This document shows, piece by piece, positions 2,795-21,340 of a stretch of 64,000 nt of DNA (its first letter is position 1; each line of letters begins with the position of its first letter). This DNA is from Zoogloea ramigera (GTDB lineage: Bacteria; Pseudomonadota; Gammaproteobacteria; Burkholderiales; Rhodocyclaceae), in contig NZ_BJNV01000010.1 of assembly GCF_006539865.1 (NCBI RefSeq), positions 1 to 64,000 on the forward strand, in the 5' to 3' direction. Under the pieces are notes generated by a model. The model did not search any database. It had not been told where the DNA came from and saw only the letters and a list, made by a program, of their open reading frames with translations. A program made the translations under genes and the position numbers.

Positions 2795-3163
2795 TTACGC
2801 TTCGGGCGGCCTGGGTTTGTTGCCGCCTTTCTTGCGCTCGGACTTCTTCTTCATGCCCAGGGCGGCATATTCGTTGGAGTCGTCTCCGTACTGGCTGCAC
2901 ACCGAATCCTTGGCCCCGAGCATCTTCTGGTGGGCGCGGTGTTCGGTGTGGGCAAGCTTGTCGCGGGCGGCGTCGAGGGCGACCTGGGCGCGGATCAGGC
3001 CCGCCTGGTCGGCACCCAGCTCGTCGAAGGTGGCGGCGATCGCTTCGAGCTTGAGCTCGGGGTCGTGGGGGGCGTAGCCCTCGATGGTGGCGAGGGCGTG
3101 GAAGGCCTTGGTATCGTCGGCGACGACCTGGGCCGGGAGACGTTTGCCGGGCGTATTGCTCAT
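2795..3163 (-). CDS. hypothetical protein, 122 residues
   Basis: Small, charged, soluble protein with no signal peptide or membrane segment. The middle is mostly helical (AATFDELGADQAGLIRAQ) and the C-terminus is a lysine-rich tail (MKKKSERKKGGNKPRPPEA). I do not recognise the family. ATG at 3163 is preceded by GGAGGAAAG. A longer in-frame start at 3397 would cross an AT-rich promoter-like stretch (3185-3250) and has no ribosome site. The terminator at 2748-2775 follows its stop. Confidence 0.7.
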   Translation of the reverse strand: MSNTPGKRLPAQVVADDTKAFHALATIEGYAPHDPELKLEAIAATFDELGADQAGLIRAQVALDAARDKLAHTEHRAHQKMLGAKDSVCSQYGDDSNEYAALGMKKKSERKKGGNKPRPPEA

Positions 3164-3409
3164 GCTTTCCTCCGGGTGCGGGATATTGGTATCAAATATA
3201 TTTGTTGCGCCTGGAAAATTAGCACCATGGGGTTTTTGGTGCAAGCAAATTACTTCGATATCATGGCCGGCGGGGCTGGCACGGGGCAGGGCCGCGCCCC
3301 GCTCGCGGCGACCGGCGGGGCGATACAGCCGCGGCGCGGCATGGCCTGGGCGGGTGGGGGCGTGGTGTCGGAGCACGCCACCGGGGGCGCGCTGCACGGC
3401 CTTGTGCCA

Positions 3410-3808
3410 TGTTCAAGCGGCGACGCATCACGATCACGCCGCTGCGTTTTTGTGATTCGGGGCTGCACGCTACACATACGCCCCCGCGTGATGCGGGCAA
3501 GCGGGCGCGAGATGCGATCTCGGGCCGGCGTGCTTCGATCACGAGGCCGCAAGTTGGCACCAGACGGCCGCTAATCCTTGATTCGTCGCCTCATCATTCG
3601 AGAACGATAGCTAAAGCTCGAATCATGCGGCCTCGTTTTTCGAGCTTTAGCTATCGTGATCGTGAAACGATAGGGCTGGCTCGCATCAAGAGGCCTCGAA
3701 TTGATGAAAAGTGCTATCGAATCACGATGTCGAGCGCGCTAATGACGATGTTGCAGGCACTCATCACGATCACGCGGGCCCGAGATCGTGATTCGGGCCC
3801 GCGTGATG
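3410..3808. repeat. array A: about 19 tandem degenerate 21-nt units with long inverted repeats
   Basis: From 3410 to 3808 the sequence can be cut every 21 bases with column conservation and no phase slip. Best consensus is roughly CGATCACG-n-GGCC-n8. Units starting at 3431, 3536 and 3767 begin CGATCACG, those at 3725 and 3746 begin CGATGT, and those at 3452 and 3788 begin GTGATTCGGG. Perfect inverted repeats arise between units: 19 bp at 3604-3622/3639-3657 and 15 bp at 3769-3783/3793-3807. Since 21 is seven codons, an open frame across it reads as a seven-residue repeat (RRRITIT, GRRASIT, QALITIT). It has no start signal and I take it as non-coding. The 3164-3409 flank holds only the promoter area of the minus-strand hypothetical gene. 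Confidence 0.8.
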
Positions 3809-3847: not shown

Positions 3848-6757
3848 TCAGGCCCGCTCGAGGTTGAGCTTGAGCAGCCGGCGCAGGATCTCGTCGTCGG
3901 CCATGGCGGGGCTGTAGTCGGACCAGCCGTAGGCGACGGCGACGGCCTGGTCGAGGGCCTGGTGGGCGTTGGCGAGCCAGGCCGGGCGCTGGTTGTAGAG
4001 GTTGGTGAGGGTGCGCTTTTTAAGCTCGGCCTCGTGGCCGGGGCGGGCCACCGGCCGCGCGGGGAAGCCGGCGGCGGCCTCCTCGGGGGTCACGACCCAA
4101 TCCACCCAGTCGGCGGGGTTGAGCCAGTTGCTGCGCAGTGTGTCGAGCCGGCGGGCGGCGGCGGCGATGGCCTCGGCCGCCGCGCCCTCGGGGGCGCCAG
4201 CGGCGGTGTCGGCGGGGGTCATGCCGGCGGGGAAGGGGAAGGTTTCGAAGGTGGTGCTGGGGGTGTAGCGGGGGTCGTTGCCGACGCCCATCCAGGTGCA
4301 CTTCCCCAAGGACCATAGCTCATGGAGGCGGGAGTGCAGAATGCCAAAGGTGGTGTCGTCCGAGCGAGCGATGACGACGACCTGACAGTCCGGCAGAACC
4401 GCTTTGTTCAACCAGACGAGAAGCCTGTGCTTTGCAACCCTAGCCGTGCCGATGAACCTTGGAAGACCAGCAAGCTTCAAGCGCATTGCAGGCATGATCT
4501 CCCCGTGACGCCACCAGTATTTTGCACGGGCAGGGCGGTTGTTCTTGACACGTTCAGGCTTGATGTTTTCGACGACGTAGTTGTAGGGCTCCTCGAACAA
4601 AGATGCGTCCTCTGCTCTCATGCTTCCGCCAAAGTCCACAATCCATCGGTCTGCAGGTCTACGCGTGATGTCGAGGCCATTTGCCCAAGGCCTTACAACC
4701 AGGGAATTCGATTCACCGTGAGGATTGGGGCGTGATAACCAGATGCGGGCCTGATCGCCAGGAATATCAAAAGGTCCGTTCTTCTGCGGACCAATGAAAG
4801 AAACGTCCAGGTTGTCATTTAGTCGCAGGGCACTTGTCAGATCGAGTCCGTCGCCCGCAGTGAGGTCTGTGTGGATGTGCTCCACTTCAACTCCATCCAG
4901 TTTGGGAGGAAGCACGGCATCCGATACGTGCCCGAAGGCAAGCAGCGACACCCGCACCGCGGCCCCCTCATTCACCCACGGCTCGTCGCTCCACGCCTCG
5001 AAGATCCGCGTCGTCTCGGCGATGCGGTCGAGCACCTTGCGGTTGGCGCCGCCGCGGATCGAGTTGGTGGCGACGAGGCCGGCGGCCTGGCACTGGCCGG
5101 CCGCGATCTGCTCGCGGGCCCGCTCGAACCAGTAGGTCACGAGGTCGGCGCCACCGGGGACGCGGCCCTTGTATTCGCGGCGCAGGCAATCGACGTAGGC
5201 GCTGCCCAGCTCGGCGCGCATCCGCTTGTCACCGAGGAAGGGCGGGTTGCCGACGATGACGTCACAGGTGGGCCACAGGACATTGCGGGCGACGCCCATC
5301 TCGCCGTGGATCTCCTCACCGGTGATCGGGTCGATGCCGTCCCAGTCGGTGCCCTGCTGGTAGTCGATTAGCGCGTCGCGGTTCTCGATGTGGTCGAGGC
5401 GGGCCAGGATGGGGTTGCGGCGGCAGTCGTAGCCGTGCTTGAGCATCCACTGGATCTCGCCGATCCACACCGTGACCCGCGCCAGCTCGGCGGCGTAGGC
5501 GTTGATCTCGAGGCCCAGCACGTTGTCGGGGCTGGTCTCGATGGTGAGCTGGCGGTGCAGGCCGAGGGCTTCGGCGTCGAGGTTGGCGCGGTGTTCGAGG
5601 TCTTTGAGGGCGCGCAGGCTGAGGTACAGAAAGTTGCCGGAGCCGCAGGCGGGGTCGAGCACGCGGAAGTTCCTGAGCCGCTCGAGATAGCCCAGAAAGA
5701 TGCCCTGGGCGTCCTGCATGGCCTTCTGCGAACCCTTGCCGCCGGCCTGGTATTTGTCGATCAGCGGGGCGAGGCGGGCCTTGGCGGCGTTCCACTCGCG
5801 CTCCAGGGGCTCGACGAGCACCGGGCCGACGAGCTTCATGATGGTCTCGGGGTCGGTGTAGTTGGCGCCCAGCGGGGCGCGCACCTTGGGGTCGAGGCCA
5901 CGCTCGAAGAGGGTGCCGAGGATGGAGGGCTCGATGGAGGACCAATCCATCTTGCTGGCCTTGAGCAGCGCGTCGATCTCGGCGGGGATCATCTCGACCA
6001 CGTCGATGTGCTCGAACAGCCCGCCGTTGAAGTAGGCGATGTCTTCGAGCAGAAAGTCGCCGCCCGAACGCATGGCGCCAAACAGCTCGGCCACCGAGCC
6101 GGCGAGCTTGCCGGCGTCGCCCTGGCGCTTGTCGATGACGCGCTCGAAGAGCTTACGAGGGAGCAGGCCGATGTCTTCGGCAAACATGCAGAACAGGCAC
6201 TGGATGAGGAAGTGGGCGACCTTCTGGGGGTCGTGGCCGCGCGTGGTCATCGACCGGGCGATGTCGGCGAAGCGGCCGGCGGCGTCGGTGGTGATGTCGA
6301 GCACCGTGCGGCCGGGGCGAAACTTTTCGGGGTCGGTGAACAGCCAGCGCAGCTTTTGCTGGTTTTCCGGCGTGCCGATGTCCTCGAGGCGGATGGTGTG
6401 CGTCTCGCTCGGGGTGCCGGTGAAGTGGGTGTGGATCTCGGTGAGCGCGCGGTTGCTCACCACCAGCAGCGGCGGGTTGTCGAGGGCCAGGGCGTAGGTC
6501 ATGAGCTGGCGCAGCGCGCCGGCCAGGTCACCGCCGGGGCCCTTGTTCTCCCAGCCGAAGTGCCCGCGCATCCACACGTCCGCCCAGCCATGCCCGGCCC
6601 CTGTGCGCGTGGCGCCACGCTCGAAGCAGTAGTTGTCGGGGTCGGTGGGGGTGGGCACGCCGAGCATGGCGCACAGATCGAGAAAGAACGGCTGCGCACC
6701 GGCACGCTCGGAGAGGGGGTTGTGTTGCCACTTGGCGATGAACTGGGCGGGGGTCAT
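3848..6757 (-). CDS. MmeI-like single-chain restriction-modification enzyme (type IIL/IIG)
   Basis: 969-residue enzyme (MmeI is about 920) combining endonuclease, adenine methyltransferase and target recognition. The N-terminal nuclease motif is D60 with E70-N-K72 (WADV ... GWENKG), the D-ExK arrangement of MmeI. Methyltransferase motif I DPACGSGNFLY is near residue 368 and motif IV NPPF near residue 503. Residues about 610-830 are the target recognition domain and are encoded by AT-richer DNA (50-57% G+C in samples at 4381-4440 and 4561-4620, against well over 70% on either side). No separate methylase or specificity gene is adjacent, as expected for type IIL. ATG 6757 is the first start matching the family N-terminus. 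The recognition sequence cannot be predicted. Confidence 0.9.
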   Translation of the reverse strand: MTPAQFIAKWQHNPLSERAGAQPFFLDLCAMLGVPTPTDPDNYCFERGATRTGAGHGWADVWMRGHFGWENKGPGGDLAGALRQLMTYALALDNPPLLVVSNRALTEIHTHFTGTPSETHTIRLEDIGTPENQQKLRWLFTDPEKFRPGRTVLDITTDAAGRFADIARSMTTRGHDPQKVAHFLIQCLFCMFAEDIGLLPRKLFERVIDKRQGDAGKLAGSVAELFGAMRSGGDFLLEDIAYFNGGLFEHIDVVEMIPAEIDALLKASKMDWSSIEPSILGTLFERGLDPKVRAPLGANYTDPETIMKLVGPVLVEPLEREWNAAKARLAPLIDKYQAGGKGSQKAMQDAQGIFLGYLERLRNFRVLDPACGSGNFLYLSLRALKDLEHRANLDAEALGLHRQLTIETSPDNVLGLEINAYAAELARVTVWIGEIQWMLKHGYDCRRNPILARLDHIENRDALIDYQQGTDWDGIDPITGEEIHGEMGVARNVLWPTCDVIVGNPPFLGDKRMRAELGSAYVDCLRREYKGRVPGGADLVTYWFERAREQIAAGQCQAAGLVATNSIRGGANRKVLDRIAETTRIFEAWSDEPWVNEGAAVRVSLLAFGHVSDAVLPPKLDGVEVEHIHTDLTAGDGLDLTSALRLNDNLDVSFIGPQKNGPFDIPGDQARIWLSRPNPHGESNSLVVRPWANGLDITRRPADRWIVDFGGSMRAEDASLFEEPYNYVVENIKPERVKNNRPARAKYWWRHGEIMPAMRLKLAGLPRFIGTARVAKHRLLVWLNKAVLPDCQVVVIARSDDTTFGILHSRLHELWSLGKCTWMGVGNDPRYTPSTTFETFPFPAGMTPADTAAGAPEGAAAEAIAAAARRLDTLRSNWLNPADWVDWVVTPEEAAAGFPARPVARPGHEAELKKRTLTNLYNQRPAWLANAHQALDQAVAVAYGWSDYSPAMADDEILRRLLKLNLERA

Positions 6758-15651: not shown

Positions 15652-16935
15652 ATGACCACCCTGATCCACTGGTTCCGCAACGACCTGCGCCTCGCCGACA
15701 ACCCCGCCCTCAGCCACGCCGCCCGGCAGGCGGAGCGGGTGTTGCCGGTGTATGTGCATTCCCCTGCCGACGATGCCCTGACGCCCTGGGGCTTTCCCCG
15801 CCGCGGCGCCCACCGGCGGCGCTTTCTGCGGGCCGCGCTGGATGCCCTCCACGCCCGCCTAGTGGAGGAGGGTAGCGGCCTGCTCGAAATCCACGGCCGC
15901 CCATCCGACTGCCTGCCGGCCCTGGCCGTGCAGGTCGGCGCCGCCGGCATCAGCTGCGAGGCCATCGCGGCGCCCGAGGAAGAAGCCGAGCTCGCCGCGC
16001 TGCGCGGTGGCGACATCCCGGTGGAGAGCGTCTGGCAATCCAGCCTGCTCGACCCGGCCGCGCTGCCCTTTGCTGCCAGCCGCCTACCCGACGTGTTCAC
16101 CGCCTTCCGCCAGGCGGTGGAGCGGGCCGGCCAGACGCCGCCGCCTCCGCTGCCCGTGCCGCGCCTGCCCGGCTGGCCGGCGGGCATCACGCTGCCCCCC
16201 AAAACCACCGAACCCACCGCCGCCTTCGAGGTGGATGCCCGCTCCTCCTTCCCCTACACCCAGCCCGCCTTCCACGGTGGCGAGGCCGCGGCGCTGGCCC
16301 ATCTGCGCGCCTACTTCGGCAGCGACCGGCCCCACCGCTACAAGGCCACCCGCAACGGGCTCACGGGGGTCGGCTTCTCCAGCAAGTTCTCGCCCTGGCT
16401 CGCCAGCGGTGCCCTGTCGGCGCGCACCGCCTACGCCCACCTCAAGGCCTTCGAGGCGGAGCGGGGCGCCAGCGACGGCAGCTACTGGCTATGGTTCGAG
16501 CTGCTGTGGCGCGACTACTTCCGCTTCCTTCACCTCAAGTACGGCCGGCAGCTGTACCGCGCCGCCGGGCTCGGCAAGCAGCCCGTGCCAGGGCACGACC
16601 CCGCCGCCTTCGCCCGCTGGTGCCGCGGCGAGACCGGCGAGCCGCTGGTGGACGCCGCCATGCGCGAGCTCGCCGCCACCGGCTTCATGTCGAACCGCCT
16701 GCGCCAGCTGGTCGCCAGCTACCTCATCAACGACCTCGGCGGCGACTGGCGGGCCGGCGCCGCGTGGTTCGAGGCCCAGCTCATCGACTACGACGTGTAC
16801 AGCAACCAGGGTAACTGGCTCTACATCGCCGGGCGCGGCACCGACCCCCGCGGCGGGCGCCGCTTCGACCCCATCAAGCAGGCCCGCGAGCACGACCCCG
16901 ACGGCAGCTTCCGCAAGCTGTGGAGCCAGCCATGA
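15652..16935 (+). CDS. cryptochrome DASH / photolyase
   Basis: 427 residues. The N-terminus LIHWFRNDLRLADNPAL is the photolyase alpha/beta domain. The flavin domain has the DASH-type signature NQGNWLYIAGRGTDPRGG followed by RRFDPIKQAREHDPDGSF. Cry-DASH proteins repair CPD lesions in single-stranded DNA or act as blue-light receptors and carry FAD plus an antenna folate. The REP pair upstream and weak ribosome site suggest it may also be expressed separately from the genes before it. It overlaps the next gene by four bases. Confidence 0.9.
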   Translation: MTTLIHWFRNDLRLADNPALSHAARQAERVLPVYVHSPADDALTPWGFPRRGAHRRRFLRAALDALHARLVEEGSGLLEIHGRPSDCLPALAVQVGAAGISCEAIAAPEEEAELAALRGGDIPVESVWQSSLLDPAALPFAASRLPDVFTAFRQAVERAGQTPPPPLPVPRLPGWPAGITLPPKTTEPTAAFEVDARSSFPYTQPAFHGGEAAALAHLRAYFGSDRPHRYKATRNGLTGVGFSSKFSPWLASGALSARTAYAHLKAFEAERGASDGSYWLWFELLWRDYFRFLHLKYGRQLYRAAGLGKQPVPGHDPAAFARWCRGETGEPLVDAAMRELAATGFMSNRLRQLVASYLINDLGGDWRAGAAWFEAQLIDYDVYSNQGNWLYIAGRGTDPRGGRRFDPIKQAREHDPDGSFRKLWSQP

Positions 16936-18464
16936 ACGCGCCCACCCTCCGCCTCATCCTCGGCGACCAGCTGAACCCCCTGCACAGCTGGTTCGCGGCG
17001 CCCAGCGACGACGTCATCCACGTGCTCATCGAGATGCGCCAGGAGACCGACTATGTGCTCCATCACGCCCAGAAGATCCTGGCCATCTTCGCCGCCATGC
17101 GCGCCTTCGCGGGCCAGCTCCGCGAGGCCGGCCACCGGGTGCATTACGTGGCCATCGACAACCCCTCCAACCGCCAGACGCTACCCGCCAACCTCGACGC
17201 CCTCATCGTCGCCCACGGCGCCGGCGCTTTTGAGTACCAGCAGCCCGACGAATGGCGCCTCGACGCCCAGCTCGCCGACTACGCCCGCGGCCTCAGCATC
17301 CCAGCCCGGATGGTGGATAGCGAGCACTTCTACACCACCCGCAGCGAGGCCGCCGAGCTCTTCGAGGGCCGCAAGCAGTGGCTGATGGAGCACTTCTACC
17401 GCGCCATGCGCCGCCGCCACCAGGTGCTGCTGGAGGGCGACAAGCCGGTGGGCGGCCAATGGAACTTCGACCACGACAACCGCAAGCCCTGGCCCGGCAC
17501 GCCTGCCGAGCCCCGCGACCCGCGCCCCCGCCACGACCACAGCGCCCTGTGGCAGACAATCGAGGCGGCCGGCGTGGCCAGCTTCGGCAACCCCCAGGCC
17601 GGCAACCTGCCGTGGCCCCTCGACCGGGCCGAGGCGCTGGCCCAGCTCGACGCCTTCATCACAGATGCCTTGCCCCGCTTCGGCGACTTTCAGGACGCTA
17701 TGAGCACCCGCGGCTGGCGGCTGTTCCACTCGCTGCTGTCCTTCGCCCTCAACACCAAGATGCTCAGCCCGCGCGAGGTGGTGGCCCGCGCCGAGGCCGC
17801 CTGGCAGGCCGGCCAGGTGCCGCTGGCCGCGGCGGAAGGCTTCATCCGCCAGATCCTAGGCTGGCGCGAATACGTGCGCGGCGTCTACTGGGCCCGCATG
17901 CCCGCCTACGCCGAGGCCAACGCCCTCGGCCACGACCGCCCACTGCCCGCCTGGTTCTGGACCGGCAAGACCAAGATGCGCTGCCTCGCCGAGTCGGTGG
18001 GCCAATCCCTCGAGCACGCCTACGCCCACCACATCCAGCGCCTCATGGTGATCGGCAACTTCGCGCTGCTCGCCGGCCTTGATCCGGCCGAAGTGCACCG
18101 CTGGTATCTGGGCATCTACATCGACGCCTTCGAGTGGGTCGAGCTGCCCAACACCGTGGGCATGAGCCAGTTTGCCGACGGCGGCCTGCTCGCCACCAAG
18201 CCCTACGTGTCGAGCGCCGCCTACCTCGACCGCATGGGCGACTACTGCAAGGGCTGCCACTACGACAAGAAAGCCCGCAGCGGCAGCCACGCCTGCCCCT
18301 TCAACGCCCTCTACTGGGACTTCTTCGACCGCCAGCGCGAACGCCTGGGCAACAACCACCGCCTCGGCATGGTGTACCGGCAACTCGACAAGATGGAAGG
18401 CAACACCCTCGACGCCCTGCGCACCCAGGCCGCCAGCCTGCGCGAACGGCTCGACAGCCTGTAG
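16932..18464 (+). CDS. FeS-type bacterial cryptochrome / (6-4) photolyase-like protein
   Basis: 510 residues. N-terminus LRLILGDQLNPLHSWF is typical of the FeS-BCP group. The flavin pocket lies in the middle (ILGWREYVRGVYWARMP; FALNTKMLSPREV). Cysteines consistent with a 4Fe-4S cluster occur in MGDYCKGCHYDKKARSGSHA with a fourth in ACPFNALYWDF, close to the C-terminus. Members studied repair (6-4) photoproducts and use a ribolumazine antenna. The start at ATG 16932 overlaps the previous stop. It is the last gene of the light operon before repeats and the restriction island begin. Confidence 0.92.
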   Translation: MNAPTLRLILGDQLNPLHSWFAAPSDDVIHVLIEMRQETDYVLHHAQKILAIFAAMRAFAGQLREAGHRVHYVAIDNPSNRQTLPANLDALIVAHGAGAFEYQQPDEWRLDAQLADYARGLSIPARMVDSEHFYTTRSEAAELFEGRKQWLMEHFYRAMRRRHQVLLEGDKPVGGQWNFDHDNRKPWPGTPAEPRDPRPRHDHSALWQTIEAAGVASFGNPQAGNLPWPLDRAEALAQLDAFITDALPRFGDFQDAMSTRGWRLFHSLLSFALNTKMLSPREVVARAEAAWQAGQVPLAAAEGFIRQILGWREYVRGVYWARMPAYAEANALGHDRPLPAWFWTGKTKMRCLAESVGQSLEHAYAHHIQRLMVIGNFALLAGLDPAEVHRWYLGIYIDAFEWVELPNTVGMSQFADGGLLATKPYVSSAAYLDRMGDYCKGCHYDKKARSGSHACPFNALYWDFFDRQRERLGNNHRLGMVYRQLDKMEGNTLDALRTQAASLRERLDSL

Positions 18465-18482: not shown

Positions 18483-18902
18483 CGGTGGAGTGTTCGCAGC
18501 GATCTCCGGCCGGAGCGGGCCTTGGTGCCGCGCACGCAAAGCCTTGGTGATGGCTGCACGAGTCCCCGTGACGCGTGCACATCCTTCTGTGACGGCCGCA
18601 CATCCTTCCGTGAGGCGCACCAATGCTGTTGTGAGGCGTGCACTTCCTTCATGCAGGCGTCGCAAGGCTGTTGTGACGGCACACAACACGATTGCGATAG
18701 TTTGCAATCGTGTTGTCAGCCGTGCAGATAAGGTAAACAGCTATCACAACAGTGTTGTCGGGCATCACAACGCCGTTGTGATAGTTTGCAACCGTGTTGT
18801 CAGGCATGCAGATAAGGTAAACAGCTATAACAATCGTGTTGTCACGCATCACAACACGATTGTTATAGCTTGCAATCGAATCTGCACGCGTGCATGCAAG
18901 AA
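18483..18902. repeat. array B: about 20 tandem degenerate 21-nt units with 84-bp higher order and strong hairpins
   Basis: 18483-18902 divides every 21 bases with no phase slip. The clearest block is 18546-18902 (17 units), consensus roughly yGTgA-n5-GCA-n8. Four consecutive units form an 84-bp block, so 18693-18776 is repeated at 18777-18860 with 12 differences by my count. Perfect inverted repeats: 13 bp at 18683-18695/18704-18716, 10 bp at 18741-18750/18775-18784, 20 bp at 18823-18842/18851-18870. Frames on both strands stay open and read as seven-residue repeats (DNTVANY, VYLICMP), a consequence of the period rather than evidence of a gene. G+C is well below the flanks. Confidence 0.85.
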
Positions 18903-18988
18903 AAAAACTATCGTCGACGGCGTTGCGGGGGTGGTGCACGCTTGCAGGCAAGGAAAAAACTATCGTCGACGGCGTTGCGGGGGTGGTG
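18896..18988. repeat. 41-bp direct repeat, 52-bp period
   Basis: 18896-18936 recurs at 18948-18988 with one mismatch. The shared core is AAAAAACTATCGTCGACGGC followed by a G-rich end. The block directly follows array B, and its right copy runs into the REP element at 18987. Confidence 0.85.
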
Positions 18989-19075
18989 TCGGGTTACGCT
19001 GCGCTAACCACGGACCTACGCAGGGGCAGCTGGGAAGGCCCGAGGTAGGTCGGGTTAGCGCAGCGTAACCCGACA
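18987..19075. repeat. second REP/BIME pair
   Basis: Inverted copies of the element also found at 15512-15602: TGTCGGGTTACGCTGCGCTA at 18987 in one orientation and GGTAGGTCGGGTTAGCGCAG at 19043 in the other. The inner bases are nearly identical to the first pair. It sits between array B and the type I restriction genes. Confidence 0.8.
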
Positions 19076-19246: not shown

Positions 19247-21340
19247 TTGCTCTCCCTCAACAAACCCAAGCTCGACAACCTCACCAACGAAATCTGGAAG
19301 TCGGCCGAGCGCCTGCGCGGCAAGTTCAAGGCCTACGAGTACCAGAACGTCATCCTGCCGATCATCGTCATCCGCCGGCTGGAATGTGTGCTCATCCAGT
19401 GGCGCGAGAAGATGCGTGAAGAGGTCAGCGGCAAGCGTGCAGCACTCAAGCCCGCCGAGCTGGCCAAGCTGGTGAAGAAACTCGAAGTCAGCCAGTCGCA
19501 CTTCTCCAACGCCACCGCCCACACCCTCGAGAGCCTCGCCGCTGAAGACCCGACCCTGCTGGAAGACAACTTCCGCGCCTACCTCAACGGCTTCTCCAAG
19601 AACGTCCGCGACATCCTCGACCACTTCAACTACCACGCCACCGTCACCCAGCTGGTCAAGAACAACCGGCTCGCCCCCATCCTCAACCAATACAAGCGCC
19701 TGGCGCTGGGCCCCGCGCAGCTCTCCAACCTCGAGATGGGCTATGTCTACGAAGAGCTGCTGCGGCGCTTCTCGGAACAAAGCGGCGAGGAGGCCGGGGA
19801 GCACTTCACCCCGCGCGAGGTCATCCGGCTGATGGTGGAGCTGCTCGACATCCCCACCCCGACCCATCACACCTCGATCTACGACCCCGCCTGCGGCACC
19901 GGCGGCATGCTCTCGGTGGCCAAGGAGCATCTGCTCGACCGCGCCCAGACCGACGCCGAGAAAAGACAGGTCGAAAGCTACGTCACCCTGCACGGGCAGG
20001 AGCTCTCGCCCAGCAACTACGCCATCTGCCGCGCCGACCTGCTGATCAAGCAAGACCAGGAAGCCCGGGTCTTTCTGGGCAACTCCCTGATCCCCCACGA
20101 CAAGAGCAGCAAGGAGCCCGGCGACCAGCTGGCCGGGGCCAACGACCGCTTCGACTTCATGCTCAGCAACCCGCCCTTCGGTGTCACCTGGGGCGGCAAG
20201 GACGGCTACGAGGACGAAGCGCGCCGCTATGCCGCCACCCGCTACCGGGCCGGCATGCCGCGCACCAACGACGGCGCGCTGCTGTTCCTGCAGACCATGC
20301 TCGCCAAGATGAAGCCGGTGGACGCCGCCAGCGGCCAGGGCGGCAGTCGCATCGCCGTCATCTTCAACGGCTCACCGCTGTCCAACGGCGACTGCGGGCA
20401 GGGCGAGAGCGAGATCCGCCGCTGGATACTCGAAAACGACTGGCTCGACGCCATCGTGATGCTGCCCGACCAGCTCTTCTACAACACCGGCATCTACACC
20501 TACATCTGGCTGCTGCGCAACGAGAAGCCCGCCAGCCACGCGGGGCAGGTCATGCTGATCGACGCCCGCCGCCAGTTCGAGAAAGAGCCCAAGGCCTTCG
20601 GCAACAAGCGCAACCGCATCGCCGACGCCCACCGCGAGTGGATCGAAGCCCGCTACCGGGCCGGCTGGGCGGAGGGCTTCGAGGACGCCGACGTCAAGCT
20701 GTTCCGCACCACCGACTTCGCCTACCACAAGGTCGGCGTTGTCTTCTGGCAGACCGGCGCCGACGAGCAGCCGGCCATCATCACCGAGCCCTACGAGAAG
20801 GCCTTCACCGCCGCCAACATCGCCAAAGAGCAGGCCTTCCACGCCAGCGAGCTGAGCTTTGCCGTGCGCGCCCGCCACGGCGACACCGCCGCCGACATTG
20901 CCGCCGACATCGCCTTCACGCTGCAGCCCGACAGCAGCTTCAACGCCGTCTGGGGCCAGGCCGTGCGCGAGGCCTTCGCCGCCGAGCTGGCCGAGCTCAC
21001 CCGGCCCATCACCGACACCCGCGAGCGCAACAAGGCCGTCAAGGCCTTCATCGACGGGCTGCAGCTTGCGGTCGTCTGGACCCACCGCCACTACATCGCC
21101 GACGACGAGTACATCCCCTTCGACCCGGCCGGCGAGCCCGCCGACTACATCCCCGCCTTCCTGGCGCGGGAGATCGCCAAGCCCATCATCCGCTGGCAGG
21201 ACAGCCCCCAGCTCGGCTACGAGATCCTGCCCAACAAGTACTTCTACCGCTACCAGCCGCCGAAACCGGCCAGCGAACTGCTGGCTGAGTTCTGGGCGCT
21301 GGAGAAGGAGGCGGAGGGGATGCTGGAGGGGCTCAGATGA
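19247..21340 (+). CDS. hsdM: type I restriction-modification methyltransferase subunit
   Basis: 697-residue N6-adenine methyltransferase of a type I system. The N-terminal HsdM helical domain has LTNEIWKSAERLRGKFKAYEY. The SAM motif YDPACGTGGML is near residue 212 and the catalytic NPPF of LSNPPFGVTW near residue 308. The C-terminal extension after residue 450 is longer than in EcoKI HsdM. Start is TTG 19247, where AAGGA lies 8 bases upstream; no ATG fits the family N-terminus. It overlaps hsdS by four bases (ATGA). With HsdS it methylates the target, and with HsdR it restricts unmodified DNA. Confidence 0.94.
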   Translation: MLSLNKPKLDNLTNEIWKSAERLRGKFKAYEYQNVILPIIVIRRLECVLIQWREKMREEVSGKRAALKPAELAKLVKKLEVSQSHFSNATAHTLESLAAEDPTLLEDNFRAYLNGFSKNVRDILDHFNYHATVTQLVKNNRLAPILNQYKRLALGPAQLSNLEMGYVYEELLRRFSEQSGEEAGEHFTPREVIRLMVELLDIPTPTHHTSIYDPACGTGGMLSVAKEHLLDRAQTDAEKRQVESYVTLHGQELSPSNYAICRADLLIKQDQEARVFLGNSLIPHDKSSKEPGDQLAGANDRFDFMLSNPPFGVTWGGKDGYEDEARRYAATRYRAGMPRTNDGALLFLQTMLAKMKPVDAASGQGGSRIAVIFNGSPLSNGDCGQGESEIRRWILENDWLDAIVMLPDQLFYNTGIYTYIWLLRNEKPASHAGQVMLIDARRQFEKEPKAFGNKRNRIADAHREWIEARYRAGWAEGFEDADVKLFRTTDFAYHKVGVVFWQTGADEQPAIITEPYEKAFTAANIAKEQAFHASELSFAVRARHGDTAADIAADIAFTLQPDSSFNAVWGQAVREAFAAELAELTRPITDTRERNKAVKAFIDGLQLAVVWTHRHYIADDEYIPFDPAGEPADYIPAFLAREIAKPIIRWQDSPQLGYEILPNKYFYRYQPPKPASELLAEFWALEKEAEGMLEGLR

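Follow-up and report, generated by a model that had tools for sequence, protein, structure and literature searches.

Why should an intergenic region of Zoogloea ramigera be built of contiguous 21-bp units, and does anything in the cell recognise them? The window analysed here is the whole stretch of 64,000 nucleotides at the start of contig NZ_BJNV01000010.1. The region in question, Array B, is a 21-bp phased array rich in dyads at positions 18546-18914, with no strand assigned. It lies between a deoxyribodipyrimidine photolyase-related gene (Pfam DPRP; 16920-18464, plus strand) and a type I DNA methyltransferase gene (HsdM; 19247-21340, plus strand). Below, labels beginning with G denote genomes (G000 is the own genome) and labels beginning with C denote contigs or loci, among which C2, C24, C39 and others belong to the own genome.

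Structure of the array

Lag-21 identity reaches 0.439 over 18483-18902 and 0.458 over 18546-18902. Dinucleotide shuffles of the latter stretch (n=2000) gave 0.249±0.025 with a maximum of 0.345, which places the array at z 8.3, and a 210-base scan found Array B to be the top lag-21 place of the window. The 21-bp periodicity claimed by the original prediction is thus borne out. The extent given there, 18483-18902, holds in that the period is kept over 18546-18902, but the units fade 5' of ~18546 and the register continues to 18914, with ~17 units in number. Lags 84 and 42 exceed lag 21 (identity 0.641 and 0.511). The duplicated 84-bp unit that had been described, 18693-18776 against 18777-18860, shows exactly the 12 differences counted, but is better read as part of three 84-bp super-units in register on the plus strand, at 18663-18746, 18747-18830 and 18831-18914. 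The third holds a terminal A-tract and ACTATCGT. The super-units have a G+C content of 45.6%, and the 5' module at 18546-18662 consists of simple units of GTGACGCGTGC-ACATCCTTC type with a G+C content of 62%.

The perfect inverted repeats of the original prediction were all recovered, with arms of 20 bp (18823-18842/18851-18870), 13 bp (18683-18695/18704-18716) and 10 bp (18741-18750/18775-18784). Dyads of 44 nt with hairpin potential lie at 18741-18784 and at 18825-18868, the latter inside the perfect 20-bp inverted repeat. Across 148 array units, a GC-like centre is flanked by A (134) and T (124), and no other axis shows as strong a dyad as this centre (complementarity 0.448 versus a median of 0.248 over axes). 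A 52-bp tandem duplication with 94% matches marks the 3' edge of the array (18883-18986) and is followed by an adjoining inverted pair of GTAG-type REPs (18988-19074), for which the own genome holds dozens of matches elsewhere. Array B does not have the makings of a CRISPR array, as its 21-bp units are contiguous, column conservation is graded and no class of spacers exists.

Copies of the array in Zoogloea

Array B belongs to a family of copies. The own genome carries three further related arrays, C24, C2 and the truncated C39, and window-type arrays occur in 4 of 23 genomes of the genus, own included, hence in 3 of the 22 others (E<=1e-4). A super-unit profile search across 395 genomes of the taxonomic family matched seven at E<=0.01, namely the four Zoogloea genomes and three weak matches in other genera that were viewed and judged to be chance. 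Among eight named contigs with a pattern derived from Array B, five are Zoogloea MAGs, and the three non-Zoogloea contigs were likewise taken as chance. Array B DNA had no match in plasmids and phages, and the pattern was found in 0 viral contigs. The claim that no known family looks like this array holds for the libraries searched.

When nine copies were cut into units, three 84-bp super-units stood in register in eight copies and two in C24. In eight pairwise alignments of these copies, gaps measure 21, 42 or 126 nt (126 against the truncated G004 copy), all multiples of 21; the only others, of 1-2 nt, lie at the 3' end and involve one particular copy. The same REP adjoins six of the nine copies read to their 3' end, and another REP adjoins one. 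One and the same sequence (GAGTGTCAGTAATTTTGTGTTC), perhaps the end of an insertion sequence, interrupts the arrays G000:C39 and G004:C111, and a CRISPR-like array directly follows the cut array in G000:C39. G007:C150 (L055:1270-1560) also carries a tandem array whose 21-bp repeats are nearly perfect and alternate at 42 bp; it closes with a hairpin beside a REP and had no match among the gene-linked arrays compared with it (E<=1e-6; described below).

Linkage to a small-protein gene family

Scanning loci for lag 21 showed that many hold 21-bp arrays of quite different sequence, and several of these adjoin relatives of one small-protein gene, the neighbour of the C2 array, which lies upstream of it. 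The own genome holds eight members of this protein family at E<=1e-6. A gene was scored as linked if, out of lags 12-59, identity in the upstream DNA (up to 900 bp) peaked at 21 or 42. All eight own members passed this rule, as against 10 of 141 background segments of the window, three of which fall at Arrays A and B. The own genome's ninth relative, a weak one at C21, has no lag 21 or 42 on top upstream. One of the eight members, a 122-aa protein predicted to be mostly helical, is encoded in the window itself (2795-3163, minus strand), and the gene-linked 21-bp array upstream of it (3389-3808, no strand assigned; approximate limits, interrupted) has a different sequence and is probably the Array A of the original prediction.

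The linkage extends beyond the own genome. A profile search of the genus found 66 places in 15 of 23 genomes. After removal of duplicates and with at least 300 bp upstream required (two further matches had too little upstream DNA), lag 21 or 42 was on top upstream in 51 of 65 Zoogloea matches versus 3 of 65 downstream. These 65 items are profile matches rather than genes, some being fragments and others a single gene matched in two pieces, and fragments or split matches also occur among the 14 of 65 without lag 21 or 42 on top upstream. In a second genus, 13 family places in seven genomes (395 genomes of the taxonomic family searched) gave 12 of 13 upstream versus 1 of 13 downstream. The protein family is rare elsewhere, the own genome being the only one with it among 369 genomes of the class and 269 of the phylum. 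The only plasmid homolog is encoded on a megaplasmid of Nostoc sp. UHCC 0926 (NZ_CP117772.1; 27.7% identity, E 1e-6); a 21-bp array precedes its gene, and another like it lies ~1.4 kb further upstream. Gene-array linkage is thus found in two genera and on one Nostoc plasmid.

Several observations stand beside this pattern. The two 21-bp arrays on the Nostoc plasmid pn1 (L250:1365-1533, 2720-2880) closely resemble each other and are accompanied by a stray unit near 2466. For the family genes at G014:C17 and G003:C47 (L209, L210), the strongest upstream lags are 41 and 20, perhaps reflecting alternating 20/21 spacing. A 21-bp array of other sequence in Aquimarina aquimarini (NZ_OMKE01000062.1; L128:1053-1240) lies upstream of what by eye is a DNA cytosine methyltransferase-like gene, and none of the ORFs listed there belongs to the small-protein family.

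Array sequence tracks the protein subfamily. Among 46 gene-linked arrays with lag-21 identity of at least 0.5, all 23 protein pairs at >=70% identity have matching arrays (E<=1e-6), compared with 5 of 93 pairs at 50-70% and 0 of 919 below 50%. Such tracking of protein by array sequence fits private specificities, but could also stem from joint inheritance of a single locus. The array can exist without the protein: in genome G004 (98% complete), one array shares 92.6% identity with Array B over 231 nt, and no family member was found.

The array-associated protein and its neighbours

The family protein is ~122 aa long with a basic C-terminal tail of GLKKKSERK type. Seven positions are invariant in 54 members (M1, Y30, G93, G103, K105, K106 and S108), and the protein is under purifying selection, with dN/dS of 0.05-0.69 in 44 close pairs. 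An AF2 model of the window member (pLDDT 86, pTM 0.56) predicts helices at 11-24, 39-92 and 97-101, hence one long helix with short ones, and no strand. Searches of Pfam, PHROGs, NCBIfam and PADLOC returned scattered matches at E 0.0021 or worse in at most four of the 54 members, which were taken as chance. The best match among PDB sequences had E 0.18, Foldseek against PDB and BFVD gave none at E<=0.001, and no transposase family matched. In viral contigs, 33 pattern stretches were seen and none was confirmed as a family member; phages yielded none.

Genes that match defence models lie near several arrays. PADLOC models were matched by five of eight scanned array neighbours, a biased choice of neighbours; no defence enrichment is claimed because these neighbours were picked partly for their defence-like looks. 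The member at C51 (L261) neighbours GajA of Gabija and a UvrD-type helicase gene, C2 (L022) neighbours a HEC-01A/HEC-01B pair, Array A neighbours a type IIG enzyme (3848-6757 of the window), and the methyltransferase gene beside Array B is itself a PADLOC match. Three neighbours of C9b and C4a had no PADLOC match.

Solo arrays

Six own arrays beside which no family gene was found were compared with 890 bp upstream of the eight own family genes. Array B and C39 match the C2 upstream array only, and the C2 upstream array is also the best match of C24 (267 bits); a match of C24 to C9a at 32 bits was taken as chance. C14 matches the C9a upstream array only, and C49 and C93 match none of the eight gene-linked upstream regions. 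No family gene lies within 900 bp of Array B, and since it nevertheless matches the gene-linked C2 array, it is by its sequence a solo array of C2 type. In a stricter comparison with gene-linked arrays trimmed to their periodic core (E<=1e-6), a partner was found only for Array B and C14 among ten arrays tried; the window-type arrays of G004 and G007:C355 had none because the trimmed cores contain only part of the array. The C14 solo array (L020:1585-1892), of C9a type with a CACTTTGGCAAAGTG core, lies between two REPs and, by eye, inside a branched-chain amino acid transporter operon.

The C24 copy is absent at the matching place in three relatives, with ~550-570 bp between aligned flanks in the own genome versus 17, 17 and 49 bp in G005, G007 and G012. 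As the matching place is nearly empty there, the C24 array was probably inserted in the own lineage; the ends of this place have diverged so far that no target duplication can be named. Array B is common to the own genome and G005 at the photolyase site, where the photolyase flank is shared and the gene on the methyltransferase side is by eye a different one. Its super-units are identical between the two genomes at 227 of 252 positions (90.1%), compared with 182 of 226 (80.5%) fourfold sites of the neighbouring photolyase-related gene and 45 of 100 positions in the rest of the intergenic DNA. Array B is hence conserved above fourfold sites. It is closer to its G005 ortholog (identity 0.880) than to the C2 copy of the own genome (0.762), which favours constraint in place over recent conversion. 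Unlike Array B, the gene-linked C2 site shows 75% identity in the array between G000 and G005 and 90% DNA identity in its gene.

Coding and RNA-level explanations

Two explanations place the function of the array outside DNA as such. The units could be a coding relic, the 21 nt (3 x 7) of each encoding a heptad-peptide repeat of a protein gene, and in two frames none of the nine array cores indeed contains more than one stop. However, no frame is stop-free throughout. Substitutions in several copy pairs favour one position class of three (e.g. 12, 12, 29), but this class is not the third position of the two near-open frames, and the spacing at the two family genes with upstream top lags of 41 and 20 would break a frame. 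With no frame open in all copies and no matching third-position bias, a protein-coding heptad repeat is not supported, the non-coding character assigned by the original prediction is supported, and a coding relic is scarcely credible. The array might alternatively be transcribed as a chain of hairpins, acting as partner of the protein or as leader of its mRNA. Folding is far more stable than expected (z-scores of -8.1 and -7.8 on the two strands, with 0 of 100 shuffles as stable), and one stem shows compensatory changes. Across 17 hairpins of 44 nt, 90.2% of cells are paired and the arms covary, with 14 double-changed cells versus 5.7 in shuffles (0 of 500), but pairs with double changes (3) and pair types (11) are no more numerous than in shuffles. 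The chain of RNA hairpins envisaged originally is a folding prediction only, made for both strands. The near-equal folding of both strands speaks against a role as RNA, as does single-strand folding with DNA parameters (z -7.8), and DNA dyads covary too. RNAalifold found no common pairs on 26 super-units, and the nine Rfam matches (eight miRNA models and one snoRNA model) all fell under gathering scores and were taken as chance. A fixed 21-bp period in unrelated sequences is also explained more easily by helical phasing, and we consider an RNA-level element quite unlikely.

Comparison with known systems

The Omega protein of pSM19035 is a small ribbon-helix-helix protein that binds contiguous short repeats of one heptad motif. 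The arrays resemble its operators in being contiguous short repeats, with 3 x 7 = 21, but here the sequences differ per member. An explanation without any host role would see the arrays as a selfish or domesticated dispersed repeat, that is, a non-autonomous mobile element (MITE-, REPIN- or BRE-like) with a 21-bp register produced by unit-wise recombination only. The several copies per genome, the filled C24 place, the 3' ends adjoining REPs, and four solo arrays that each best match one gene-linked array are all in line with this. Among MITE hallmarks, neither a long terminal inverted repeat nor a target duplication was recognised, with the ends at C24 too diverged to define them. REP/BIME elements with RAYT (GTAG and CGTC families; PMC3733652) are likewise dispersed palindromic repeats and a REP pair touches Array B, but their hallmark is a palindrome of 20-40 bp with a terminal GTAG or CGTC tag. 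Array B, in contrast, has a strict 21-bp period and 0 GTAG and 0 CTAC in 18546-18914, with the REP pair lying outside. The beta-proteobacterial repeat element BRE, compared by description only, comes close in unit length (75-91 bp, in tandem, mostly intergenic and of variable number in Betaproteobacteria) to the 84-bp super-units; its average G+C is 69% as opposed to 45.6%, and the accessible part of its description includes no linked protein or 21-bp sub-period (PMC3110155). A purely selfish origin would further leave unexplained the placing upstream of one gene family, the conservation of Array B beyond fourfold sites and a linked protein without likeness to transposases. We therefore regard a selfish repeat as unlikely.

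A centromere-like site, with array and small protein forming a parC/ParR-type partition or anchoring complex, offers the closest functional analogy. In parMRC, the gene for a small protein adjoins tandem repeats that vary from paralog to paralog, a non-cognate ParR fails to bind, and the parC repeats of pSK41 are 20 bp long, about two helical turns (PMC9426499). Tandem repeats beside a small-protein gene are also found at the gene-linked arrays, though not at Array B, and the Nostoc homolog sits on a megaplasmid. By analogy, the array-protein unit would work most like ParR-parC. We do not file it as a member because the strandless, helical model contains no ribbon-helix-helix; up to eight members per genome and the existence of solo arrays also set it apart. 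Among the neighbours scanned, the P-loop ATPase genes near three of the eight own members (C51, C2 and C4b) are of GajA, HEC-01A and KAP types, not ParM or ParA. A true partition site seems very unlikely.

Proposed function of the arrays

We suggest, at roughly even chances, that Array B is a one-face platform at the DNA level for a cognate protein, and a solo copy of a cis-element that is otherwise linked to the gene for that protein. This platform reading draws on the two-turn period in unrelated sequences, on units that are dyads, and on a small linked protein with a basic tail. The consensus of the units scores higher for palindromy than its shuffled versions (4.83 versus 4.00 of 8 pairs, 47 arrays), and the covariation of the hairpin arms also speaks for dyads. 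With units two helical turns apart, the cognate protein could bind side by side on one face of the DNA and build a nucleoprotein array. The idea of one-face binding in the original prediction gains indirect support from the 21-bp period in arrays of unrelated sequence in two phyla. For Array B, the cognate protein would be the paralog encoded at the C2 locus. Gene-linked arrays may control the gene of their own protein or mark the locus, and solo arrays such as Array B may serve as secondary targets, put in place by some form of copying. From these patterns we infer DNA binding, one-face assembly, regulation or marking, and the copying of solo arrays from C2.

A broader picture is possible, and we hold it tentatively. 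The small helical protein and its private 21-bp, two-turn operators may constitute an undescribed, patchily distributed two-part unit, in which both parts evolve jointly, matched like a lock to its key, to give many pairs per genome. Arrays without a gene, such as Array B, would be remote addresses, bound in trans by the C2-locus protein to organise, silence or mark chromosomal sites. A literature search did not meet the array-protein system, and with bioRxiv and most subscription journals outside its scope does not establish absence from print.

Taken at face value, the linkage would mean that in some bacteria whole families of private protein-array pairs continue to evolve new specificities; such pairs have been met in Proteobacteria and on one cyanobacterial plasmid. 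A strange intergenic repeat thereby becomes a directly testable claim of one small protein for one array. If true, the proteins would amount to naturally orthogonal DNA binders that act at multiple sites, and the arrays to chromosomal addresses of a new type.
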